This document shows positions 13,192 through 24,820 of a stretch of 42,768 nt of DNA, one piece after another. Location of the stretch: positions 1 through 42,768 of the forward strand of contig JASHQJ010000030.1 of assembly GCA_030037595.1 (NCBI GenBank), in the 5' to 3' direction. Below the pieces are notes generated by a model. That model ran no database searches and was not told the origin of the DNA. It saw only the letters and a list, made by a program, of their open reading frames with translations. The stretch is from Candidatus Binataceae bacterium (GTDB taxonomy: Bacteria > Desulfobacterota > Binatia > Binatales > Binataceae). Each line of letters begins with the position of its first letter. Within the stretch, counting starts at the first letter, position 1. Position numbers and translations under genes: made by a program.

Positions 13192-14025
13192 GTGAAATAC
13201 GAAACTATCATTCTCGAGCGAAAGGACGGCATCGGATATCTCACTCTAAATCGCGCCGAGCGCGCCAATACCATCAGCTTTCAGTTGATGATCGATGTGG
13301 TGAACGCGATGGAGGAGGTCGAGAAGGATGCGGATTATCGCGTCGTAATCGCCACCGGCGCGGGCCCGAAACATTTCTGCGGCGGCGCGGACCTGCGCGA
13401 TTTCGCAGAGCGCGCTCGCGCGCGAGCTGAATCCAATCGAGAGGGCGGCCGCGAACGCGAGGGCGGCGGCGACTTCGTATCGCCGCGCCGCGACCTGTTC
13501 AGCGCACTGGAAGAATCGCGTGTACCGGTCATCGCCGCGATCAACGGAGCCGCGATGGGTGGAGGCTGCGAGATCGCGCTGGCATGCGATATTCGCGTCA
13601 TCGCCGATACCGCCACAGTCGGTCTTCCCGAGATTCGCTTCGGCGCGCTACCCGCGGGCGGCGGAACTCAGCGGTTACCACGGCTGGTGGGCGCGGGAAT
13701 CGCGAAGGAGATGATCTTCAGCGGGCTTCCTTATACTGCCGAAGACGCGCTGCGCATTGGACTCGTCAACAAGGTCGTTCCTGCCATCGATTTGATTCCC
13801 GAGTGCGAGAAGATCGCACATGTATATATCGAGCGCGCGGCCTACGCGCTCAAAACTGCCAAGGCGCTGATCAATCGTGGCGTCGAGCTTCCTTTGAAGG
13901 ATGCGCTCGCCCTGGAGCGCAAGATGATCGCCGAGATGGCGACGCCGGAGGAGCGCAAGGCCGCGCAGGATGCGGCGGCCGCTTCGCAGAAGACCTACGC
14001 AAGAATATTCGGCCAACGAACCTAA
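13192..14025 (+). CDS. enoyl-CoA hydratase
   Basis: This 277-residue crotonase begins at the GTG at 13192, ten bases after the SDR stop (GGGGAACGCAA upstream); longer frames overlap the SDR. It is the only crotonase here with both hydratase glutamates in canonical context: GGGCEIALACD and VGLPEIRFGALPAGGGTQRLP. A charged insertion of about 20 residues (around ARARAESNREGG) follows the oxyanion loop GGADL. True hydration of an enoyl-CoA is therefore likely. Its stop lies at the 3' edge of a decayed intron on the opposite strand. Confidence 0.92.
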   Translation: MKYETIILERKDGIGYLTLNRAERANTISFQLMIDVVNAMEEVEKDADYRVVIATGAGPKHFCGGADLRDFAERARARAESNREGGREREGGGDFVSPRRDLFSALEESRVPVIAAINGAAMGGGCEIALACDIRVIADTATVGLPEIRFGALPAGGGTQRLPRLVGAGIAKEMIFSGLPYTAEDALRIGLVNKVVPAIDLIPECEKIAHVYIERAAYALKTAKALINRGVELPLKDALALERKMIAEMATPEERKAAQDAAAASQKTYARIFGQRT

Positions 14026-14066
14026 TCGGCATAGGGGGTAGCGCCGCGGCGCTACTCCCCTGCCTC

Positions 14067-14098
14067 ACCACCGGACATGCGGGTCCGCATCCGGCGGT
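14067..14098 (-). ncRNA. group II intron domain V
   Basis: On the minus strand an 8-bp stem (ACCGCCGG with CCGGTGGT, one G-T pair) leads through a 2-base GT bulge to a 5-bp stem (ATGCG with CGCAT) closed by a GACC loop. This is the domain V layout of group II introns. The lower stem carries CGC at the catalytic-triad position, as in class C introns. The fold is intact although the protein part is ruined. Confidence 0.75.
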
Positions 14099-14119
14099 TC
14101 GAAAGGTTGAGGTTATCGG

Positions 14120-14480
14120 CGAGTCGAGGAACCCCCCTAAGCGATCGAAGTAGCGGGCAGTTAGTCCGGCGTGCACCGAATTGGCGGCGCGCGCCCACCA
14201 GCGGCGGTTGACCGCCGCGGCGTAAGCTGCGACCCGCTCCGACAAGCCAAGTCTCGGCATTGCCGCGTAGATCTCAGCGCCGTGTTTCCACTGCTTGAGC
14301 TGCAGCGCCCGCAGCCGGTGGCGGCTCCATTTGTCGTATTCGATGAACAGGCAGGTAGGGCGTATCCGCGAGTTGGAAGTATTCCTTCCATCCCGGCAGA
14401 TCTTTCCTCAGTTCCCCGATTACGCTCTCCATGCTCCGTCCGCCGCTGCGTCTGTTCTTTCGCGCACGCGCTGCTTGAGC
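14120..14480 (-). pseudogene. group II intron reverse transcriptase/maturase, C-terminal remnant
   Basis: One frame reads NRRSGGRSMESVI, then GELRKDLPGWKEYFQLADTP, which is the group II maturase (GIIM) domain. A single-base shift then moves the match to SRHRLRALQLKQWKHGAEI and on to MPRLGLSERVAAYAAAVN and YFDRLGG, the usual C-terminal end of these proteins. Upstream of 14480 no reverse transcriptase motifs are recognisable, although fragments of helical, Arg-rich sequence remain. The protein cannot be functional as read. Confidence 0.8.
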
Positions 14481-15086
14481 GGTGCAACGCCTTGGGGGCG
14501 ACCCGGCGCATGACCGCGCCGCCCTTGGCGTACCAGATGCTGTAGCGCAGAAAGGCTGCACCTGTGGTGCGGTCGCGGCGCGCGGGCGAGCCCCAATTGC
14601 GTGGGCTTCTGGCGCCTGGCGTCTATCGGACTCACAGTGGTTCGCTCTCCCCTCCGTTTGGTCCTTCACCAGCGCGGACATCGAAGCATCTGCCGTATCC
14701 CGCGAACTCAAACACCTGCCTCGCCGCGCAGCTCTTCTCGGCTTCGCCCTCCTCGATCCATCCACCGGCGAACTGCTGCTGACGAATCCTGTTTCTTAGG
14801 AGGAGGCCCAGTGCGAGATCTCCCCAGGTAAGACTCCGTGACTTTCACCACACAGCCGCCGAATTTACGCGATGGCCCCTTGCCCGATAGAGCTGCGCGG
14901 TCAACTGCCCGCTCGCCCTGAGCCACCCCGCCTCTTATCCGCTTCCTGTTCGTCGGCTCGCGGCTTTGCTCCACGCTTCCTTAAGACCTCATCTCACGAT
15001 CACGTCCTTGCGCTTCGCTTGTGCTCGACGCGGCCTGCTTGCACAGAGGACTTTCACCTCCTAGTCATGCGCCATGCTGGGCGTAC

Positions 15087-15144: not shown

Positions 15145-15846
15145 CTACTCTTCCGGCACCAGTTCGACGCGCCGGTTCTGCGCGCGGCCCTCAGCCGTGT
15201 CGTTGGGCGCGACGAAATCCGTCTTGCCGTATCCATGCGGCACCAGCTGACCCGCCGGAATGCCCTGCTGCACCAGGTAACCGACTACAGAATTAGCACG
15301 CTCGTTGGACAGCTTCAGGTTGTACTCGACGCTGCCTATCGCGTCGCAGTAGCCGTTGACGTCGATCGTGACGTTCGGGTTCGCCCGCAACGTTGTGGCT
15401 GCCTCATCGAGAATCGCCGCATCACCCGGACGGATGTTGTACTTGTTGAAGTCGAAGTGCACACCGCGCAGCACGAGCTTCTGCTTCACCGCGGGCGGAG
15501 GCGGAGGCGGCGGGGGTGGAGGCGGTGGAGGTGGAGGAGGAGTCGGAGGCGGCTGAACGATAGGATCGCAGACGAAGTGTCCGATGACACCGCCGATCAA
15601 CGCGCCTGACGCCGCGCCGACCACGGCACCCGTAGCCTGACGCGACGGACCGTTATGACTGTTCTTGCTGGTGGCATCGCCGACGGCGAAACCGATTCCG
15701 GTGCCGGCGAGCGCGCCGAGGCCGCCGCCGATAACTGTGCACCATCCCACTTTGCGCGGTTGTTCAAGGTAAGAGCAGCCTGACGCCAGGGTCGCCAGAC
15801 CGGCTGCAATCGCTACAAGGATCGAAGACCGCGATCGTATTTTCAT
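15145..15846 (-). CDS. OmpA-family (Pal-like) lipoprotein with glycine zipper and poly-Pro linker
   Basis: From the ATG at 15846 (GGGAGGAAA directly upstream) the product is 233 residues. It has a lipoprotein signal peptide ending LASGC near residue 25, then a glycine-zipper membrane segment (GGGLGALAGTGIGFAVG and GAASGALIGGVIG). A run of about 20 prolines follows, then an OmpA peptidoglycan-binding domain. The domain's motifs are VHFDFNKYNIRPGD, NGYCDAIGS, LSNERANSV and GRAQNRRVEL. It should anchor the outer membrane to peptidoglycan. The longer open frame to 15936 lacks a binding site and would bury the signal peptide. It is monocistronic and ends in its own terminator. Confidence 0.92.
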   Translation of the reverse strand: MKIRSRSSILVAIAAGLATLASGCSYLEQPRKVGWCTVIGGGLGALAGTGIGFAVGDATSKNSHNGPSRQATGAVVGAASGALIGGVIGHFVCDPIVQPPPTPPPPPPPPPPPPPPPPAVKQKLVLRGVHFDFNKYNIRPGDAAILDEAATTLRANPNVTIDVNGYCDAIGSVEYNLKLSNERANSVVGYLVQQGIPAGQLVPHGYGKTDFVAPNDTAEGRAQNRRVELVPEE

Positions 15847-16030
15847 TTTCCTCCCGAACCCTCCCATAGCCATCGAAACGAAAAACTGGCGCACTACGGT
15901 GTAGCGCGCACGATTGCGTCTTAGGAACAGAGTCACCGAAATTTAACCCTGTTGCCGCTTGATGGATCGGAGGTTACGGAAATGTGACGCGGGCACCTGC
16001 TCGTCCCGTGCCGCCCAACGGCGGGGCGCG

Positions 16031-17818
16031 TCAGATGCCGAGCGTCTGCGCTTCCCAGAGCGCTCTGAAGCGGCCATCGCGCCGCACACTGAGTTCTTCC
16101 CACCGACCCGATTCGACGACGCGTCCGTTCTCGAGCACGTAGATGGTGTCGGCCGATCGAATGGTCGAGAGCCGATGCGCGATCATGACCACGGTCACTT
16201 CAGCACCGAGGTCCGCGATTGCGGCCAGGATGCGCACCTCGTTGTCGGAATCTAGACTGTTGGTCGCTTCGTCAAGAACGAGCAGCGCGGGATGGCGCAG
16301 GAAGGCACGTGCGAGCGCGAGACGCTGCCGCTCACCCTGCGAGAGCATCACGCCGCGATCGCCGACGACCGTATCGAGGCCGGCCGGCAGCGCGTTGACG
16401 AAATCAGCTGCGGCGCGCGCGAGTGCAGTGCGCATCTGCTCGTCGGTCGCGCCCGGCCGCGCCCAGAGCAGGTTGGCGCGGATCGTATCGTGGAAGAGAA
16501 AAGTATCCGACGCGACGTAGCCGATATTCTCGCGCCACGACGGTGCCTGCTCGGGCCGCAGCGTCACGCCGTCAACCGATATTCGGCCGGAGTCGGGAAA
16601 GATGAGGCCCATCAACAAGTCAGCCGCCGTGCTTTTGCCCGCGCCCGACGGTCCGACCAGAGCGATCTTGTGACCCGCCTTGATCGCGATATTCAAGTCG
16701 CGCACCGCCGCGCCGCGAGTCGAGTTGTAGCCGAAGGTCGCGTCCTCCAGACGCAACTCGCGTTTGAACTCGGGCGCCGGCACCGAACCCGCGCTCGACT
16801 CGGCCGCCTGCACGCAGCGACCTTCAAGATCGAGCACGCTGACAAATGAAGGCATCGCGTTGATGAATCCGCGATAGTAATGATGGACGGACATGAAACG
16901 CGGCATCACGCGGGCGAAAAGCAAAAGCAAGATAAGGATCGCGGCAGGCGGCACCCCGATCAGCCGAATCGAGGCGTAGAGCACGACCGCCAGGATCACA
17001 ACCGAACCGAGTTGGAACAACAACTCGACGCGCGCCTGCTCGCGGGCGCTCGCAATGTTGGAGTCGGCTACGTCGCGGCTGAGTGCGGAGAAGATCGCGG
17101 CGTTGCGGCGCTCGGCGCCGTAGGCTTTCGCGGTCTTGAGGCTCAGCAAATGATCGTTGATCGCGGCGAATAGCGACTTGGTGGTGCTTGACACCTCCTG
17201 CCCGGTTTCCTGGATTGCCTGCGTCTGGCGGCGAAATGTGAGCGCGAGAACGAGCGCGCATCCGAGCACCAGCATCGTCATGCCCGCCGAGAGCGCGAAT
17301 GCGATTATCACGTAGAGGATGCTGATAACGAGGTCCGAAGCGAGCTGCATCAGCATGAAAGTCCCGGTCGCGACGCGATCGATGTCGGATGTGAGTGCGT
17401 GCGTGAAGTCCGAGGCACGGGTACGCGACACGAAAAGCCAACTCGCGTTGCTGATCGCGTTGTAGAGGCGCCCGCGCATATGATTTTCGAAGTCCTGCTG
17501 CACGCGATACATCGCAACGGTTTGCGACCGGCCAACGAGCGTGCGGAGACCGGCCAGCACGACGAACATCCCGAGCAGCATGAGGAGATCAGGATGCAAT
17601 CCGATCGCCGCAAAGACCTCCGTGACCGCGTGCGCGTAACGTCCAGCTTCGCCCTGCCCGGTCAGGTTCAAGCCCGCCACCTGCAGCGTCGGGAGCAGGA
17701 GCGCGATTCCGACACCTTCTGTGAGCGAGAACCCGGTCATCAACGCGATCGCGCTCACCAGATGCCAGCGCGCGACCGCGATAAGCATCGAGAGATAACG
17801 CCGAAACTCACGCCTCAT
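16031..17818 (-). CDS. ABC transporter, permease-ATPase fusion (lasso peptide exporter)
   Basis: Starting at the ATG at 17818 (ATGA overlap with the nucleotidyltransferase stop), the product is 595 residues. Six membrane helices span residues 1-320 and an ATPase domain follows. Walker A GPSGAGKST is at 389-397, the signature LSQGE at 492-496, Walker B LLVLDE at 512-517, and the H-loop in MIAHRLS. There is no N-terminal C39 peptidase, consistent with export of an already matured product. It is the last gene of the lasso cluster, where a D-type exporter usually gives export and self-immunity. The longer frame to 18046 is a shadow of the preceding gene. Confidence 0.93.
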   Translation of the reverse strand: MRREFRRYLSMLIAVARWHLVSAIALMTGFSLTEGVGIALLLPTLQVAGLNLTGQGEAGRYAHAVTEVFAAIGLHPDLLMLLGMFVVLAGLRTLVGRSQTVAMYRVQQDFENHMRGRLYNAISNASWLFVSRTRASDFTHALTSDIDRVATGTFMLMQLASDLVISILYVIIAFALSAGMTMLVLGCALVLALTFRRQTQAIQETGQEVSSTTKSLFAAINDHLLSLKTAKAYGAERRNAAIFSALSRDVADSNIASAREQARVELLFQLGSVVILAVVLYASIRLIGVPPAAILILLLLFARVMPRFMSVHHYYRGFINAMPSFVSVLDLEGRCVQAAESSAGSVPAPEFKRELRLEDATFGYNSTRGAAVRDLNIAIKAGHKIALVGPSGAGKSTAADLLMGLIFPDSGRISVDGVTLRPEQAPSWRENIGYVASDTFLFHDTIRANLLWARPGATDEQMRTALARAAADFVNALPAGLDTVVGDRGVMLSQGERQRLALARAFLRHPALLVLDEATNSLDSDNEVRILAAIADLGAEVTVVMIAHRLSTIRSADTIYVLENGRVVESGRWEELSVRRDGRFRALWEAQTLGI

Positions 17819-19089
17819 CGCGAATCGACGCCGGCACTCAAGCCGGCACCTCCAAGCGCGCCGCGAATCAGCCGCGGTCCGTATTGCAGCGTCATGCGAA
17901 ACGGGCGCATCAGCCAGTAGACACCGAACATCGCGCGCGGTAGCGGCAGCATCTGGTAGTCGCCCATCGTTGGCGCGAGTAGGCGGCCAACGACGTAGCG
18001 AACGCGCCCGAGAGTGGTTTCGATCGACCGAAATGGAATCGTCCACGGCTCGACTACTGGCTCCTTGTCGGGCGGCCGACGAAAGAGCTCTCTGGCGGCG
18101 AGCGACGAGAGTGCGGTGACATCACGATCCGCGCGGATGAGCGCGTCGATGTCATCTGGCAGCAGAGCATCGGCCAGCGTGCGCGCTAAAAAGAGGCCCG
18201 TCAGCAAAATTCTCCGCCCACCGCATCGCGCCGCGCGATCGAGCGCCTCGTTGAGATCGATTTCGCGCCGCGCCCTCAGCAGCTCGGCGACATCGCAGAC
18301 GTTGCTCAGCGAATGCCATCCGTGCTTGGCCCCGTGCGCGCAGAGGTAGAGTAGATGGTCGATATGGTCGGGAACGCGGATCGCCGCACCCATCAGCTCA
18401 ACCGTGATTGCGCGGCGCCACACCGAATCTTCGTCGGGCGCAAACGGAAACGCGCGCGGCGTCAGTTGCCAATGAACGTCGATCCCGCCGACGCCGCCCG
18501 GACCCGAGAAGAAATCCTCGAACTCCTGGAAGTACGGATCGCCCGCTCGTTCGCGCCGCGTAAGCATCGAAGTGTAATGTTCGGCGCTTAGGACCTCCGC
18601 CGCGCGCGCGAGGTCGCCGCGATGCAACAGCAGATCGAGATCGACGAACTGACGTCGCTCGATCGAGCCGTACGCAATCTCGGCAAGCATCGGTCCCTTC
18701 AGTGAAAGTGTGGCGACACCGGCGTCGGCGAGCAGATGCGTCAGCCGAACGAGTTCACTCGCGAGATGGCGATTGAAGAGAACTATTAAGTGGTAGTTGG
18801 TGCGAAGCGCGGCGAGGCGCGCCTCGGGCACGATATCGGCACAGGTATCCACGAGGAATCGATAAACCAGCGGCGTGACCGCGTGGCGCCGGGCAAGGCG
18901 GCTTAGTAGATCGAAGTCGGCAGAGGCGGCATGCGATCGCGCGATCGCGACGCGCGGCTCGCTGCGAAGAGTGGTCGCGGTAGCGAGCAGCAGGCGCGCC
19001 TCGCCGGGAGCCATGACTGAATTGCTCGAAGACGCCACGTCGAGTTGGAGAATAGCCTTGCCGCCGGATTGGCCCAAGACCGGTCTCAT
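17815..19089 (-). CDS. nucleotidyltransferase family protein (PF14907-like), lasso tailoring
   Basis: This 424-residue protein starts at the ATG at 19089, whose A is shared with the kinase stop (TGATG). It resembles the uncharacterised nucleotidyltransferase family found beside lasso kinases. LKGP lies at 130-133 and the metal-binding DLD motif at 150-152 (QFVDLDLLLH), followed by a GGIDVHWQL segment. Family members occur next to HPr-kinase-like proteins in lasso clusters such as pseudomycoidin, where they modify the phosphorylated peptide further. The donor and product here are unknown. Stop-start overlaps on both sides bind it tightly to the kinase and exporter genes. Confidence 0.82.
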   Translation of the reverse strand: MRPVLGQSGGKAILQLDVASSSNSVMAPGEARLLLATATTLRSEPRVAIARSHAASADFDLLSRLARRHAVTPLVYRFLVDTCADIVPEARLAALRTNYHLIVLFNRHLASELVRLTHLLADAGVATLSLKGPMLAEIAYGSIERRQFVDLDLLLHRGDLARAAEVLSAEHYTSMLTRRERAGDPYFQEFEDFFSGPGGVGGIDVHWQLTPRAFPFAPDEDSVWRRAITVELMGAAIRVPDHIDHLLYLCAHGAKHGWHSLSNVCDVAELLRARREIDLNEALDRAARCGGRRILLTGLFLARTLADALLPDDIDALIRADRDVTALSSLAARELFRRPPDKEPVVEPWTIPFRSIETTLGRVRYVVGRLLAPTMGDYQMLPLPRAMFGVYWLMRPFRMTLQYGPRLIRGALGGAGLSAGVDSR

Positions 19090-20051
19090 CACCCCAAATC
19101 GGCGAGGACAACCTCTCGTGCCCGGTCGAGCAGGTCGAAGCCGCACGGAATCACGAGGCGCTTCATCGGCACCATATCTACCACGCGCTCCATGAATCGA
19201 AAGTGACGCTCCAGGGTTGACCGATCGGTGATGTCGAGCGGAAACGAAGCCTGCACCAGCTCAAGCAACGCGTCGCGCGGCGAGATCGATTCGATTCGCA
19301 CCGAGGCGTCTGATGCGCCATTGTTGGAACGTTCGAGCCGATAAATCCGCGCGAGTGGAATCGGCGCGAGCGGAAAGTCGCGTGGATTCGCGAGCGGGAA
19401 CGCGCGCCGCTTTGGTGTGTAGTGCGCGACAGTTCGACCGCCATCCGCCCCGATTCCGAGCGCCCAAGCAGTATCGTTCCAGAGCCGAAGGCCGGGATAG
19501 GCGGGCACGGCCGCAATCGCGCCCCGATCAACGAGCGACAGGCAATCGTCGGCGAGTGAGACGAATCCCGCGCGGCAAAACGCGCCCGCTATGGTCGATT
19601 TGCCGGTGCCCGCGGGTCCGATAAAGGCACAAACGCCTGCCCGAGTTGCGATTGCGGTTGCGTGCAACGCCTCGCGCCCGCGCACGCTGAGCATCAGCGG
19701 CATGAGCTGGTCGAGCAGCAGATGTCGAATTGTCACGATTGCCACGCCATACGAGCGCCGTGTGCAAACGACACGGTCACCAGCGGCACTCAGGTCGAAG
19801 CGTGCGAGGCCAGGAAAGACGACTGCGAAGCCGTGCTCGGTGCGCCAGATTTTACGCCACAGCTCGCCACCCGGGAGTTGGGTCTCGGCGATAAACTTAG
19901 TCGTTGGCGGTTGCTCGCGATAGCGCCTCGCCAGCCGTACTGCGATGTCCGGGCGCGTGCCGCGATCTGTCTTGAGCGCAGGGACGAGCTCAGGTAGGGG
20001 CACATCGGACCTCAGAATCAAGCCGTGCGCGCGGTAGCGAAACACCCGCAA
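19089..20051 (-). CDS. HPr kinase-like protein (lasso peptide kinase)
   Basis: The 320-residue protein has an HprK-like C-terminal kinase fold. LHATAI has His130, the P-loop GPAGTGKST is at 145-153, and the LADDCLSL acidic segment follows. Its N-terminal part is unlike regulatory HprK, as in lasso kinases of the paeninodin type that phosphorylate the core peptide. The frame can only open at a TTG (20051) or a GTG two codons later, since an in-frame stop lies just upstream; no strong binding site is visible. It follows the precursor gene after an intrinsic terminator. The target residue is unclear because the predicted core has no Ser. Confidence 0.83.
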   Translation of the reverse strand: MRVFRYRAHGLILRSDVPLPELVPALKTDRGTRPDIAVRLARRYREQPPTTKFIAETQLPGGELWRKIWRTEHGFAVVFPGLARFDLSAAGDRVVCTRRSYGVAIVTIRHLLLDQLMPLMLSVRGREALHATAIATRAGVCAFIGPAGTGKSTIAGAFCRAGFVSLADDCLSLVDRGAIAAVPAYPGLRLWNDTAWALGIGADGGRTVAHYTPKRRAFPLANPRDFPLAPIPLARIYRLERSNNGASDASVRIESISPRDALLELVQASFPLDITDRSTLERHFRFMERVVDMVPMKRLVIPCGFDLLDRAREVVLADLG

Positions 20052-20101
20052 ACTTTAGTCTAAGTTGGTCGAAGCGTATGCAATCGCGATTGGAGCTTCG
20101 A

Positions 20102-20139
20102 GAAAAACGACGCGGCGACCGCCATCGGCAGCCGCCGCG
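20102..20139 (-). terminator. intrinsic terminator between lasso precursor and kinase genes
   Basis: On the minus strand CGCGGCG pairs with CGCCGCG. The inner part pairs as CTGCC/GGCGG around a GAT loop, giving a 13-bp stem with G-T pairs, and TCGTTTTT follows directly. It lies 43 bases after the precursor stop and 50 bases before the kinase start. Partial termination here would give more precursor than tailoring-enzyme transcript. Confidence 0.75.
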
Positions 20140-20182
20140 ATTAGGTTCGATCAGTAAAGCAAGAACCGCAAAAACTGTTTAA

Positions 20183-20362
20183 TTACAGGCAGGTTCCCAT
20201 CCTTTTGTTCAATGTACCGGTCCCGCCGTCGGTCGGGGGAGCAGTTCCGTTCGTGGCGGTAAGCTTGGCAACGCTCCCGTACTCAATCAGTCGAGGAGAT
20301 TGATAGGCCCGCCTTGTCTCCGACGATTTGGTACGGCCCTTTTCCTCATGCTGCTTACGCAT
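20183..20362 (-). CDS. lasso peptide precursor (59 aa)
   Basis: The gene encodes 59 residues starting MRKQHEEKGR. It has the RRE-recognition leader pattern Y-x2-P-x-L-x3-G-x4-L-T in YQSPRLIEYGSVAKLT (residues 20-35). Placing the conserved Thr35 at position -2, the leader ends at Ala36 and the core is residues 37-59, beginning TNGTAPPTD and ending GTCL. Asp45 is then core residue 9, the right place for an N-terminus-to-Asp macrolactam. The tail has Lys-Arg at core 17-18 and a single Cys at 22. GGAGGGG sits 4 bases before the ATG. It lies between the methyltransferase and kinase genes of a full lasso operon. The leader call is firm; the exact cleavage site is inferred. Confidence 0.88.
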   Translation of the reverse strand: MRKQHEEKGRTKSSETRRAYQSPRLIEYGSVAKLTATNGTAPPTDGGTGTLNKRMGTCL

Positions 20363-20366
20363 CTAA

Positions 20367-20373
20367 CCCCTCC
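20367..20373 (-). promoter_or_regulatory. ribosome binding site of the lasso precursor
   Basis: On the minus strand GGAGGGG lies 4 bases ahead of the ATG at 20362. It is the strongest Shine-Dalgarno match in the lasso cluster. It fixes the start of a gene otherwise easily overlooked because of its size and fits high expression of the precursor. Confidence 0.8.
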
Positions 20374-20403
20374 AATAGTGCCGGAATTCCAATGGGCAAC
20401 ACG

Positions 20404-20433
20404 CTTGTATCAAAGAATGCAGTGCTTGGTCAA
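20404..20433 (-). promoter_or_regulatory. candidate sigma70-type promoter of the lasso precursor
   Basis: On the minus strand TTGACC (5 of 6 to TTGACA) is followed after 18 bases by TACAAG (4 of 6 to TATAAT). Transcription would begin near 20397, about 35 bases before the precursor ATG. The 166-bp gap after the methyltransferase gene holds no convincing coding region, which leaves room for a private precursor promoter. Confidence 0.4.
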
Positions 20434-20528
20434 AGAGCAAATTCCGTCGAGTGAGCCTCTTAAGACTCATCAGAGCGCGCCGCGGAGACTCCAAAATGTT
20501 GGATAGCCAGACAGTCCCAAAATATCCA

Positions 20529-21716
20529 TCACCAAGCAGTTTGTTGCAACCGCGCGCTTATTTCTCGAACTTCCTCCGGCGCTTCCGCATAAACAGCTGT
20601 CACTTCCGTAACGAATTCAGCTGCCCGATCGAGCGAATCGAATAGATTTCGATGCCGTTCGAAGACGATCTTCTCAATTTCTCCAAGCGATCTCTGTCCA
20701 TCGCACAGATCAACCACGGTCCGTCGAGCTTCGCCCCACGGGGTCAACCTGGGCACGAAGTCCGGCCGTGTTTTGGCGAGGTTTTCGGCAGTCATCAGCA
20801 TCCCACGCATGGTCGAATGAACGAAGCGAGCCTTTTCGTTGCCTGATTTGTCGGCAATCTTGACCTTCCATGTGACCATGATTTGCTCCGGCGTGATGTT
20901 CATGGCGATTGAAACGCGGTCACCCGGAACAACCTGAATCGGGCGCTCGATCGGCAGAAATACCGCGCGACGCGTAATCCGGCGCGCGACCGCTGGGCTG
21001 TTGGTCATCACAACGCCGGGCGCGAGTTCGGATGAAAACCATCCGGCCAGGCCGTGCATCGTCGCCTTGCGGAGGACACGAACTGTTGTCTCAGCGGAAA
21101 AATTCACCGGCGCCGCGGCAGCATCAAGCGTGATCAGTTTGCCGCCGTTCGATATCAGCTTGAGCAGCCGCGCGTCGGTCGGATAGCCGGTGTTGGACGC
21201 GATCTTCTGCGCCGGCGAGAAATCGAACCTCGCGGGCCGCGCGCTCCAGAAAGTTGCGTTGCGATATCCACGCGGATAGGTGACCGCACCCGCATGCAGG
21301 CTTATTCGGTGCGGCACGGTTCGGCCGCCGGGCTTCAAGAATCGCGCTACGGCATCGCGGAAAAACTCGAGCACGCCCGCCTCAAAACCGAAGTGACCGA
21401 TCTGATCGGCTACGATCACATCGACCTTTTCCGGTAACTCAATCCGCGTCGAGAGTCCCTGGATTCCGATCACGCGATCGCCAAATCCGTTGGCACGCGC
21501 CAATTCGCGCGCGACCTGGATCATTCCGCCGGCATCGACGGCATAAACTCGTCGTGCGCCTGCTGCGCACGCAAACAGGCCGAGGATTCCCGTTCCAGCA
21601 CCAAGATCCATCACCACGTCGCCGGGCTTTACAGTTTTCCGGATAGCCTTGCGAAACAGGCCGAGGCGAAGCTTGTCGGAGAGATATTCCCGATGTTCGT
21701 CGAGCACCAGCGACAT
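20529..21716 (-). CDS. PRMT-like SAM methyltransferase with C-terminal PqqD-like domain (lasso tailoring)
   Basis: The 395-residue protein starts at the ATG at 21716, eight bases after the cyclase stop. Residues 1-310 resemble class I protein arginine methyltransferases: DEHREYLSDKLRLGLF, the SAM motif VVMDLGAGTGILGLF, AVDAGGM, and a beta-barrel half. The PRMT double-Glu loop is altered to ADQIGHFGFEAG, so Arg may not be the target. The last 79 residues (from 317) read PRLTPWGEARRTVVDLCDGQ and SLGEIEKIVFERH, then a long helix, which resembles a PqqD/RRE winged helix. Such a domain could hold the precursor leader. Methylation of the core or its C-terminus is an inference from gene position. 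Confidence 0.82.
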   Translation of the reverse strand: MSLVLDEHREYLSDKLRLGLFRKAIRKTVKPGDVVMDLGAGTGILGLFACAAGARRVYAVDAGGMIQVARELARANGFGDRVIGIQGLSTRIELPEKVDVIVADQIGHFGFEAGVLEFFRDAVARFLKPGGRTVPHRISLHAGAVTYPRGYRNATFWSARPARFDFSPAQKIASNTGYPTDARLLKLISNGGKLITLDAAAAPVNFSAETTVRVLRKATMHGLAGWFSSELAPGVVMTNSPAVARRITRRAVFLPIERPIQVVPGDRVSIAMNITPEQIMVTWKVKIADKSGNEKARFVHSTMRGMLMTAENLAKTRPDFVPRLTPWGEARRTVVDLCDGQRSLGEIEKIVFERHRNLFDSLDRAAEFVTEVTAVYAEAPEEVREISARLQQTAW

Positions 21717-21724
21717 CCGAACCT

Positions 21725-23740
21725 CTAGTTTCCTTTGAGAATTGCGGCCCGCATCTCAGCGGGGGCTGCTGCATCATTCAAGCGTTCCTCGGCCGGTCGA
21801 TGATCTCTGATCGGCGGTCCCACACCCGACGCTGCACTCTCGCATCCGAACGTTTCGCTGAACCAAAACTCAACGGCTAAAACCACCCACAGCCTCGAGA
21901 TATAATTTACGTACCCCAGGTCGCCCGACGCATAGAGGGAGTCCATTTTGCGATATGCCTCCCTGACGCGTGCGCCATCGACCCAGCCCGCCTGTTCGAT
22001 TTCGAGTGAATCGAAAATGCGCTCGCCGCCGAACGCGCGCATCGTCTCGGGAAACGTGTATCCGAAAGAACCTTTGTCCAGGCGCGCCAGTATAGAAGGC
22101 GGTACAATTCCGCGCATCGCACGGCGCAGCACGAACTTGGTCTCCAGCTCGCGCAGCCGCTGATTTTCAGGGATGGCGAATGCAAACTCCATCACGCGGC
22201 GATCATAAAACGGATGCCGCATCTCCACGGCGACGGATGCGGCATATCGATCGATCGGTTCAAGAGCCTGCGCCATCCAGCCCGCACTGTAGGTGCGATA
22301 GACGTCCTGTTGTGCAAGATCGCGGCATCGTGGCAGCACCGGCTGCCGCGCCATCCGCTCCGCGTACCTGGCACGGCGGGCAAACTCCGGCGCAATCGAG
22401 AAAGGCAGCTCGTCGCGCACAAAAAAGGGCTTTACCACCCGTTTCAACTGCTTCGGCACGAGCGGCAGAATCCCATTGCGGAAGAATAGCCGGAGCGGAG
22501 GGTAGAACATCGGATCGCTTCGCCGCATCTCACGATCAAAGCGCAAACGCCTGAGCACCGCGCCGAACTCAAGACGCCGAAGCATATCCGCGTAGCCGAA
22601 GCCGCTGCCGCCAAAAAAATCGTCACCGCCCTCACCTGTCAGCGACACTCGCACATCGCCCAGAGTTCGAAAGAATACCGCCAAATCAATCGCCGTGCCG
22701 CTTGGGTTGTAAGTCAGATCGCGATAGTGACGCGCCGTTTCGCGATACCATTTGAGCGGGCGCAACGAGGCCGCAACGTGATGACTTCTGAGATCGAAGG
22801 CGGCTTCGGCCTCGGCGACATAGCGCCGCTCGTCCGCCTCAGGGCGGTCATGATCGACCGACATTGCGTCGAAGGCGGCCACGTTCGCGGCGCCGGTCTT
22901 CATCAGACGCGACGCAATCGCGACGATGGACGACGAATCGATGCCGCCACTCAAGTCCGCAACGACGCGGCCAACACTTCGGAGGCGACATCGCACGGCT
23001 TCAAACAGAATCGCGCGAAAGTGCTCGGCGTAGTCGTCATCGGTTCGATATTCAATCGAGCGCGCCGGATCCAGGTCGTAGTAGCGCCGCCGCGTTAGAC
23101 CCGCCTGCGCAACGAGGAACAGGAATGAAGCCGGCAAGCGATAGATTCCCTGATAGAGTGTCTCCTCGCCTTCATGCGGCGAGGCGCCAAGCGTCTCCGC
23201 GATCATCCCCGCATTCGGCGTCATTGGCACGCGCGGGTCAGCGAACAACTGATGCAGTTCGGAGGCGCACACAAACAAGCCGCCATTGATGAAGTAGTAT
23301 AGTGCGGCAACCCCGAGCGGATCGCGCGCGCAGAGCATGCGGCGGCGCTTTCCGTCCCAAAGCGCGAACGCGAAGTCACCCAGGATCTCGGCCGGAAAAT
23401 CGTCACCCCAGCGCTGGTAGGCGGCTATCACGTAGGCCGCGTCCGAGTCTCCCGACGGAATGATCGCGGCCCGCTCGAACGCGTCCTTCAATTCATCGCG
23501 ATTGTCGATTCTGCCGGTGAAGACCAGCGCCAGATTGCTCCCAACATCGAGCAACGGCTGCGATTCACGCAGCGACTCGGGCGTCGTATGCAGCATCGCA
23601 TGGCCGAGAGCTACCGGACCGTCACACCACGACGACGAGCCGTCGCGCGCACGATAGGGAGCTGCCGCGATCATCCGCTCGACGGCCGCGCGCTCGGCCG
23701 GACTGCCATCGAGATGGAAAACCGCCGCGATCCCGCTCAT
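21725..23740 (-). CDS. asparagine synthase-like lasso macrolactam synthetase (C protein)
   Basis: The 671-residue protein has an N-terminal class II glutamine-amidotransferase-like domain (about 1-215) and a C-terminal synthetase domain. The ATP-pyrophosphatase motif SGGIDSS is at 264-270, with LTGEGGDDFFGG later. The N-terminus is MSGIAAVF, with Ser where glutaminases need Cys2, so no ammonia would be made. This loss is normal for lasso cyclases, which adenylate the Asp/Glu side chain for ring closure. It is slightly longer than many homologues through a C-terminal tail. The gene sits between the second PqqD gene (25-bp gap) and the methyltransferase (8-bp gap). Confidence 0.92.
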   Translation of the reverse strand: MSGIAAVFHLDGSPAERAAVERMIAAAPYRARDGSSSWCDGPVALGHAMLHTTPESLRESQPLLDVGSNLALVFTGRIDNRDELKDAFERAAIIPSGDSDAAYVIAAYQRWGDDFPAEILGDFAFALWDGKRRRMLCARDPLGVAALYYFINGGLFVCASELHQLFADPRVPMTPNAGMIAETLGASPHEGEETLYQGIYRLPASFLFLVAQAGLTRRRYYDLDPARSIEYRTDDDYAEHFRAILFEAVRCRLRSVGRVVADLSGGIDSSSIVAIASRLMKTGAANVAAFDAMSVDHDRPEADERRYVAEAEAAFDLRSHHVAASLRPLKWYRETARHYRDLTYNPSGTAIDLAVFFRTLGDVRVSLTGEGGDDFFGGSGFGYADMLRRLEFGAVLRRLRFDREMRRSDPMFYPPLRLFFRNGILPLVPKQLKRVVKPFFVRDELPFSIAPEFARRARYAERMARQPVLPRCRDLAQQDVYRTYSAGWMAQALEPIDRYAASVAVEMRHPFYDRRVMEFAFAIPENQRLRELETKFVLRRAMRGIVPPSILARLDKGSFGYTFPETMRAFGGERIFDSLEIEQAGWVDGARVREAYRKMDSLYASGDLGYVNYISRLWVVLAVEFWFSETFGCESAASGVGPPIRDHRPAEERLNDAAAPAEMRAAILKGN

Positions 23741-23765
23741 GCCGATTGGCCCGGGAAAGGAATGC

Positions 23766-24068
23766 TCAACGGCGCGCGGCTCGCTTCCTTGGCGCCGCTG
23801 GTGCTTCGGTGGAGATTTTCACAAGGCCCCTGCCCTCGAGGTCCTTGATGAGCGCTTCGAGGTCGTTACGGAGCTGCTCTACGCCGGCATCGAAGTCTTC
23901 CTGAAGACGCGTCACTGTTTCATCGACCGAGCCGTGCTCCGCGAGCAGCCGCCACATCGCGCTGCCCGCGCCGCTCAGCCCAAAATATTGGTTCGATACG
24001 ACGTCGAGAATCACGACCTCGTCGTCGAGCTCGCGCCACACGACGTCCTCAGGAATTTCAACTCTCAT
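23766..24068 (-). CDS. second PqqD/RRE-family protein of the lasso cluster
   Basis: This 100-residue protein is a PqqD-like winged helix. It reads VVILDVVSNQYFGLSGAGSAMWRLLAEHGSVDE and ends with a helical LIKDLEGRGLVKI segment plus a basic tail (PRKRAARR). In the family the three-stranded sheet and third helix bind the leader peptide. It lies between B2 and the cyclase and is not redundant in sequence with the PqqD protein at 24524. Lasso clusters normally need only one such protein, so this copy may serve the cyclase or a tailoring enzyme. PqqD family is confident; partner is unknown. Confidence 0.87.
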   Translation of the reverse strand: MRVEIPEDVVWRELDDEVVILDVVSNQYFGLSGAGSAMWRLLAEHGSVDETVTRLQEDFDAGVEQLRNDLEALIKDLEGRGLVKISTEAPAAPRKRAARR

Positions 24069-24099
24069 CTATCCTCTCGCCGCAGAAACGTCCTTACGT

Positions 24100-24540
24100 T
24101 TACCGCGTACTCGGATCAGTTGGGACAAGCGGCACATAGTTTTCCAGTTCGAAGTCGCCGATGACGACGGCTCCGTCGCTCTCGAGCCAGGCGTGCGCCT
24201 TGAATTCGCCGGCCGCGGGATTGGCGACGCCGAAGCGAAGCTCGGCGGGATAACCATAGCGGTCAAGCATCATTTCCGCCGCGAGTGCACGCACGAGGCA
24301 ATTGGAACCCGCGGGAACAACATTGGCTGCGGCATTTACCGCCCAGGCGATCCGTTCACGCGGCGGTTTGTCGGATCCGGCGTGGACGCCCCGGGAGCGC
24401 ATCCGGTCTGCGAGGGCGCGCACGCGCGCAAACGGCATGGTCCACGTCGCAAGCCGCATCACGACGACCGATGCCAGCGCCTCGAGCACGACGCGGCGCT
24501 CTGATGCGGCGAGCGCGATAAACTTACTGAGACGCGTCAT
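24100..24540 (-). CDS. lasso leader peptidase B2 (transglutaminase-like)
   Basis: With the ATG at 24540 the protein has 146 residues, typical of stand-alone B2 proteases. An N-terminal helical part is followed by the papain/transglutaminase-like core. The catalytic triad candidates are Cys81 in SNCLVRALA, His116 in FKAHAWLE and Asp129 in VIGDFE. It removes the leader from the precursor together with the RRE protein B1. The start overlaps the B1 stop by 17 bases; a TTG two codons earlier is also open but less likely. Confidence 0.93.
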   Translation of the reverse strand: MTRLSKFIALAASERRVVLEALASVVVMRLATWTMPFARVRALADRMRSRGVHAGSDKPPRERIAWAVNAAANVVPAGSNCLVRALAAEMMLDRYGYPAELRFGVANPAAGEFKAHAWLESDGAVVIGDFELENYVPLVPTDPSTR

Positions 24541-24820
24541 CCACAAGTTGTATCAAACCGCGCGCGCTTAGATCGCCAAGCAGCCGAATAAGATCGGAGG
24601 CGCACTGTTCCGGTTCGACATCATAGAGTTCGAGCAGCTCGTCGCGAATTTCGCTGACCCGCCGCGGCTCGGCCAGCATCTGCCACACGGTCGAGCCGAC
24701 CGGGTCGAGGCCGTAGTAGAAGCCCCGCTTGAGGTCGAGGATTGCGGCCTCGCCGGCCAGCTCGCAGGAGACCTGGTTCGTGGCAGCAACTACGATCGAG
24801 TCGGTAGAGATGACCTTCAC
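24524..24820 (-). CDS. PqqD-family RRE protein B1 of the lasso cluster
   Basis: Started at the GTG at 24820, the product is 98 residues beginning MKVISTDSIVVAATNQ. This fits the usual size of lasso B1 proteins; the 25-residue N-terminal extension in the open frame is Arg/Cys-rich and looks non-coding. The PqqD pattern EAAILDLKRGFYYGLDPVG, then VWQMLAE, is clear. B1 binds the Y-x2-P-x-L leader and delivers it to B2, whose gene overlaps this one. It is the first gene of the cluster, 113 bp after the LLM oxidoreductase on the same strand. The Shine-Dalgarno sequence is poor, so the start is moderately sure. Confidence 0.87.
   Translation of the reverse strand: MKVISTDSIVVAATNQVSCELAGEAAILDLKRGFYYGLDPVGSTVWQMLAEPRRVSEIRDELLELYDVEPEQCASDLIRLLGDLSARGLIQLVDDASQ

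Follow-up and report, generated by a model that had tools for sequence, protein, structure and literature searches.

A lasso-peptide gene cluster of a Candidatus Binataceae bacterium with a probable tailoring methyltransferase of PRMT ancestry

Introduction

The bsf cluster of Bradymonas sediminis (BsfA, B1, B2, C, D, K and N; PMC10368454) encodes a lasso-peptide precursor with a YxxPxL motif at leader positions -17 to -12, a discrete B1 protein, a B2 peptidase, a cyclase, an ABC exporter, an HprK-like kinase and a nucleotidyltransferase. Here we describe a cluster sharing all of these features at positions 16031 to 24820, minus strand, of a 42,768-nucleotide stretch (the window), contig JASHQJ010000030.1 of an uncultured Candidatus Binataceae bacterium. 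It differs from bsf in having Thr at leader position -2 (Ile in bsf), a second B1 gene, a methyltransferase (M) resembling protein arginine methyltransferases (PRMTs), and a core peptide with a Met...Cys-Leu tail.

A kinase and a nucleotidyltransferase also stand beside lasso genes in the paeninodin and pseudomycoidin clusters (PadeK, PsmK, PsmN), but those kinases target a C-terminal Ser that the window precursor does not have, and no methyltransferase of the M kind accompanies them. The S-adenosylmethionine (SAM)-dependent methyltransferases described in lasso clusters in the literature consulted belong to other families: StspM and LasF, acting on the C-terminal carboxyl group, with StspM modelled on a mitomycin O-methyltransferase, and LihM-type enzymes, acting on the ring Asp, with LihM a PIMT homologue. 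In contrast, M is related to PRMTs by sequence and predicted fold and has an extra C-terminal helical domain. With the type-I enzymes PRMT1, PRMT6 and CARM1 it shares the common fold over residues 1-306 and a SAM-binding motif, DLGAGTG, but it has lost their double-E and THW elements, carries the additional domain and is encoded beside a lasso precursor. The lasso part of the cluster is of a known kind; what sets the cluster apart is the PRMT-derived methyltransferase together with the second RRE (B1) gene, the tail signature and the existence of relatives with split loci.

Results and Discussion

Gene content of the cluster

All nine open reading frames (ORFs) are collinear on the minus strand, as an earlier sequence-only reading of the window had stated, and follow one another in the transcription order B1a, B2, B1b, C, M, A, K, N, D. 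Judged by its genes, the set is a genuine lasso-peptide cluster of the kinase and NTP_transf_5 type, closest to bsf, and this identification is firm. We are fairly confident that the locus as a whole directs lasso-peptide biosynthesis with an extra PRMT-derived tailoring methyltransferase, along the course proposed below. The earlier reading had named a B1-B2-C-A-K-D set; those names hold, but the PRMT-like methyltransferase, the NTP_transf_5 gene and the second B1 had been passed over, and the Cys-Leu tail and the split relatives formed no part of it. The features are as follows.

24524 to 24820, minus strand: B1a, discrete PqqD-type RiPP recognition element (RRE); Pfam PqqD 64.8 bits, cut-off 23.4
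24100 to 24546, minus strand: B2, lasso leader peptidase, Cys82-His118-Asp131; NF033537 102.4 bits, cut-off 33
23766 to 24068, minus strand: B1b, second discrete PqqD-type RRE, adjoining the cyclase gene; Pfam PqqD 61.2 bits
21725 to 23740, minus strand: C, lasso cyclase, asparagine-synthase-like, lacking Cys2; NF033535 420 bits
20529 to 21716, minus strand: M, type-I PRMT-fold methyltransferase (residues 1-306) with a helical C-terminal domain (307-395)
20183 to 20362, minus strand: A, 59-aa lasso precursor; NF033521 23.5 bits, cut-off 19
20255 to 20362, minus strand: leader peptide, 36 aa, with YQSPRL at -17 to -12 and Thr at -2 (from the sequence, register from PMC10368454)
20186 to 20254, minus strand: core peptide TNGTAPPTDGGTGTLNKRMGTCL, with a ring predicted from Thr1 to Asp9 (all relatives have an acidic residue at 8 or 9)
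20186 to 20191, minus strand: C-terminal Cys-Leu codons of the core, recurring in precursors beside M
20367 to 20373, minus strand: ribosome-binding site GGAGGGG of the precursor gene (from the sequence)
19089 to 20051, minus strand: K, HprK-like kinase, P-loop GPAGTGKS at 145; TIGR04352 HprK_rel_A 18.7 bits, a weak match
17815 to 19146, minus strand: N, NTP_transf_5 protein; Pfam PF14907, E 4.8e-57
16031 to 17815, minus strand: D, ABC exporter; Pfam ABC_membrane and ABC_tran

Precursor and core peptide

Divided after LTA, the precursor reads MRKQHEEKGRTKSSETRRAYQSPRLIEYGSVAKLTA / TNGTAPPTDGGTGTLNKRMGTCL (leader / core), which places YxxPxL at -17 to -12, the register described for bsf-type lasso precursors (PMC10368454), and Thr at -2. 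The score of its leader on NF033521, above the curated threshold, the GGAGGGG a few bases 5' of its ATG and the conservation of its counterparts in related clusters show that the 59-aa frame is no chance ORF. An acidic residue occupies position 8 or 9 after LT-x in 21 of 21 cores (16 distinct cores beside M and 5 from clusters without it) and, taken with the YxxPxL register, makes a Thr1-Asp9 ring the best reading. Sequence comparison therefore lends good support to a core starting TNGTAPPTD with a 9-residue ring; the sequence-only reading had anticipated the lasso leader motif, this start and the ring Asp. A 7-residue ring beginning at Gly3 would fit the window precursor and that of locus L075 only. 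No second precursor was recognised in the gap at 20363-20528, where the sole listed ORF (43 aa) lacks a leader motif. At an acidobacterial locus (L096, 7580-7963), two tandem precursors with the near-identical cores VDMMGMADGGGGMMNKT and VDMNGMADGGGGGMNKT lie beside a related methyltransferase.

Leader-binding, protease and cyclase proteins

The B1a gene overlaps the start of B2; its GTG start at 24820 is inferred, with the longest ORF reaching 24895. Among solved structures, B1a has lasso B1 proteins as its relatives (9x90 and TbiB1, 5v1u). The PqqD/RRE protein of the earlier reading is present, but as one of two B1 proteins above the Pfam PqqD cut-off. Its Cys-His-Asp protease and its asparagine-synthase-like cyclase without Cys2 were correctly recognised: B2 retains C82, H118 and D131, while the cyclase begins MSGIAAVFH and keeps SGGIDS at 264. 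The lasso cyclase model NF033535 is the best match of the latter (420 bits versus 235 for asparagine synthase), although this score lies below the cut-off of 525 of that narrow model. Both enzymes thus score best on lasso models. The earlier reading had named two refuting outcomes, a 59-aa frame without a lasso-precursor score and a grouping of these enzymes outside lasso families; the leader score speaks against the first and the profile scores, used in place of a tree, against the second. No solved relatives of B2 or of the NTP_transf_5 protein were found by sequence. For the exporter, also named earlier, alignment of its relatives makes the ATG at 17815 the most likely start, in place of that of the 671-aa ORF.

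A PRMT-fold methyltransferase

M (395 aa) matches PRMT6 and CARM1 in sequence (E ~1e-25), and its AlphaFold2 (AF2) model, with a pLDDT of 93.5, superimposes on PRMT1 (1or8) with Z 33.1 over 298 aligned residues at 2.1 A. Where PRMTs have the two glutamates of the double-E loop, M has Asp and Ala in the alignment; nearly all lasso-linked relatives likewise have Asp at the first of these positions. In M, ITR stands in place of the THW loop. T/SHW is kept in proteins of loci L090, L101, L108 and L115, the last three of which are outgroup proteins that keep both the first double-E Glu and THW. Arg is absent from 11 of the 16 cores found with the clade of M described below, and five of the 16 lack both Arg and Lys. 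Given the loss of the arginine-holding residues and the missing Arg in most related cores, M is probably a SAM methyltransferase of PRMT ancestry whose substrate site is something other than arginine, as judged from its sequence and model. The three outgroup proteins have no recognisable lasso genes nearby and may be genuine arginine methyltransferases of bacteria.

The separate domain at residues 307-395 is predicted to be helical only; an RRE consists of three strands followed by three helices. PqqD (3g2b) is its best solved match, a weak one (Z 5.5 over 51 residues). By eye the domain had looked PqqD-like, and an RRE fused to M was considered, but the profile comparison with B1 gave 4.9%, and no strands are predicted. 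On the strength of that failed comparison and the short PqqD match, the domain is not established as an RRE.

Distribution of M and the tail of the core

Close relatives of M occur in about a dozen of 148 genomes from its class, and most of the neighbourhoods examined hold a lasso cyclase, a kinase and/or a precursor. Scanning 84,980 species genomes gave 80 loci in many phyla (phyla are those given in the titles of metagenome records, which can be mistaken), roughly 30 of them, counted by eye, with lasso genes nearby; plasmid records gave distant methyltransferases only. In a maximum-likelihood tree the window M falls inside a 17-row clade (support 100/98) spanning several phyla, all members of which lie in lasso clusters where the contig is long enough; at L081, near a contig end, the kinase alone is visible. 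No paper joining lasso peptides and PRMTs was found in a search that left subscription papers and preprints mostly outside, so that an earlier description is possible, and the one shared match concerned another natural product. M is apparently a helper enzyme of lasso clusters without earlier description.

The presence of M goes together with the end of the core. Within its clade the core is highly variable except for its tail, where Met occurs in 15 of 16 distinct cores and a terminal Cys-Leu in ten; L058 (...ALGCL, without Met) supplies one further Cys-Leu core. Related clusters without M have neither feature (0/5 each). Fisher tests of the clade against these clusters gave p values of 0.0003 for Met and 0.035 for Cys-Leu, which are indicative only, given that the rows are related and that the motif had already been noticed when the groups were compared. 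Placed on the tree, the Cys-Leu ending takes three changes to explain, for example one gain and two losses. Selenocysteine in place of Cys was considered where Cys-Leu is missing and was rejected, there being no TGA-Leu context in L059-L063 or L085.

The kinase and possible targets of M

K has the P-loop and an ADD motif, and the kinase recurs in related lasso clusters. Known lasso kinases of the PadeK/ThcoK/PsmK type depend on a C-terminal Ser acceptor in the precursor (PMC8498205, PMC9266682), which the window precursor, ending in Cys-Leu, lacks. BsfK phosphorylates ring Ser3 (PMC10368454), and at least one ring Ser/Thr is present in each of the 21 cores examined. By this analogy, K more likely phosphorylates the ring.

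An HprK-like kinase and an NTP_transf_5 gene accompany nearly every M-bearing cluster, and the pair is also known, without a methyltransferase, from pseudomycoidin and bsf. This would fit a methyltransferase that caps or otherwise modifies the phosphate placed on a ring Ser/Thr by K, with or without the NTP_transf_5 protein. We consider this unlikely. K and N are also present in related clusters without M, and M is tied to the tail motif, not to a change in the ring.

Slightly less probable still is a true arginine methyltransferase acting on the single Arg of the window core (tail ...NKRMG...). Such an activity would agree with the PRMT fold and sequence of M, but neither double-E glutamate nor THW is kept, and 11 of the 16 clade cores are devoid of Arg. 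A non-arginine site in or at the end of the tail is the target that we prefer.

Two recognition elements and split loci

In the window B1a adjoins B2, and B1b adjoins the cyclase gene. In genomes G018, G027 and G032 the sole B2 shares a contig with B1a but not with B1b-C-M-A-K, and in G018 and G032 it sits deep within a long contig. In G018, G022 and G023, which belong to one genus, NadE, B1a, B2 and ABC genes follow in order with the cyclase elsewhere, and an OmpA gene lies beyond in G018. The window has the same flanks, with LLM between NadE and B1a, and B1b-C-M-A-K-N between B2 and ABC; the order B1a-B2-B1b-C recurs in G055. The occurrence of B1a-B2 and B1b-cyclase at separate loci in several relatives suggests two modules able to act in trans, with one RRE per enzyme. 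From Bacilli, two RRE copies beside lasso genes are reported, the second forming part of an adjacent pathway (PMC13381572).

The separation of the six-gene block and B1a-B2 in G018, G022, G027 and G032 could also mean that they are unrelated pathways adjacent by chance in the window, B1a-B2 maturing some other precursor. We regard this explanation as improbable, since the split genomes each show a single B2 and a single full-length cyclase that is closely related, the distant B1a-B2 had no other precursor next to it, and the nine genes are contiguous in the window with their B1a-B2-B1b-C order repeated in G055. A linear or other non-lasso product, like the linear polyphosphorylated peptides of Bacilli, whose clusters have kinase, NTP_transf_5 and RRE genes in common with those of lasso peptides (PMC13381572), is highly implausible, because those clusters lack a cyclase and use signal peptidase, whereas B2 and a lasso cyclase are both present here.

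History and surroundings of the locus

Genome G053, from a sister species in the same genus, has NadE and LLM in place (92-94% identical), as well as the last 45 residues of the exporter and OmpA (91%). Between them is a gap of ~640 bp (L070, G053:C97 1290-1929) holding inverted pieces of M and of the N/exporter junction. On the simplest reading the cluster was present in the common ancestor and was then lost in G053, leaving a scrambled remnant. In G055, from another genus, LLM still stands beside B1a (73%), so the locus is old in the family. The contig was also considered as a contaminant of the draft genome, and this was rejected because its flanking genes are 91-94% identical to those of G053.

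Beyond the exporter lies a conserved neighbour, an OmpA-family lipoprotein gene with a long proline run (15145-15936, minus strand), also found in G018 and G053. It is followed by a probable group II intron of ~1 kb (14025-15003, minus strand), with an Rfam D1-D4-3 match of 113.7 bits (14834-15003) and one to domain V barely below threshold (14025-14099, 38.3 versus 40 bits); no reverse transcriptase gene was recognised between the two matches (14025-15003).

Proposed pathway and significance

The analysis establishes which genes are present, their families, the register of the core, the predicted PRMT fold, the absence of the arginine-binding residues and the link between M and the tail motif; each chemical step below, its place in the sequence of events, the site of methylation and the separate duties of the two RREs are inferred. 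The YxxPxL of the leader would be bound by both RREs, by B1a on behalf of B2 and by B1b on behalf of the cyclase and possibly of the tailoring enzymes. Like BsfK in bsf, K would place a phosphate on a ring Ser/Thr while the precursor is still linear, and the NTP_transf_5 protein may extend it. M would use SAM to methylate a site other than arginine, with the Met...Cys-Leu tail or the C-terminal carboxylate as the most likely place. B2 would cleave after LTA, the cyclase would close the ring between Thr1 and Asp9 with the tail threaded through it, and export would fall to the ABC protein.

More broadly, and only tentatively, a PRMT-fold enzyme that gave up arginine may serve as a lasso tailoring methyltransferase in several phyla, acting on a site tied to the Met...Cys-Leu tail (sulfur or the C-terminal carboxylate), with separate RREs for protease and cyclase and with halves workable from distant loci. 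Several observations weigh against the pathway as proposed here: six members of the M clade lack the Cys-Leu tail, the comparison set without M is small (5) and the rows are related, the second RRE is not universal (G010 and L077 have a single B1), and K matches HprK models weakly.

If true, a widespread, tail-linked lasso methyltransferase derived from PRMTs would add to the known tailoring chemistry, beside the O-methyltransferase for the C-terminus and the PIMT homologues for the ring Asp. The pairing of the methyltransferase with a Cys-Leu precursor would then provide a handle for genome mining, and the relatives with split loci offer a natural test of separate RREs for leader cleavage and cyclisation.

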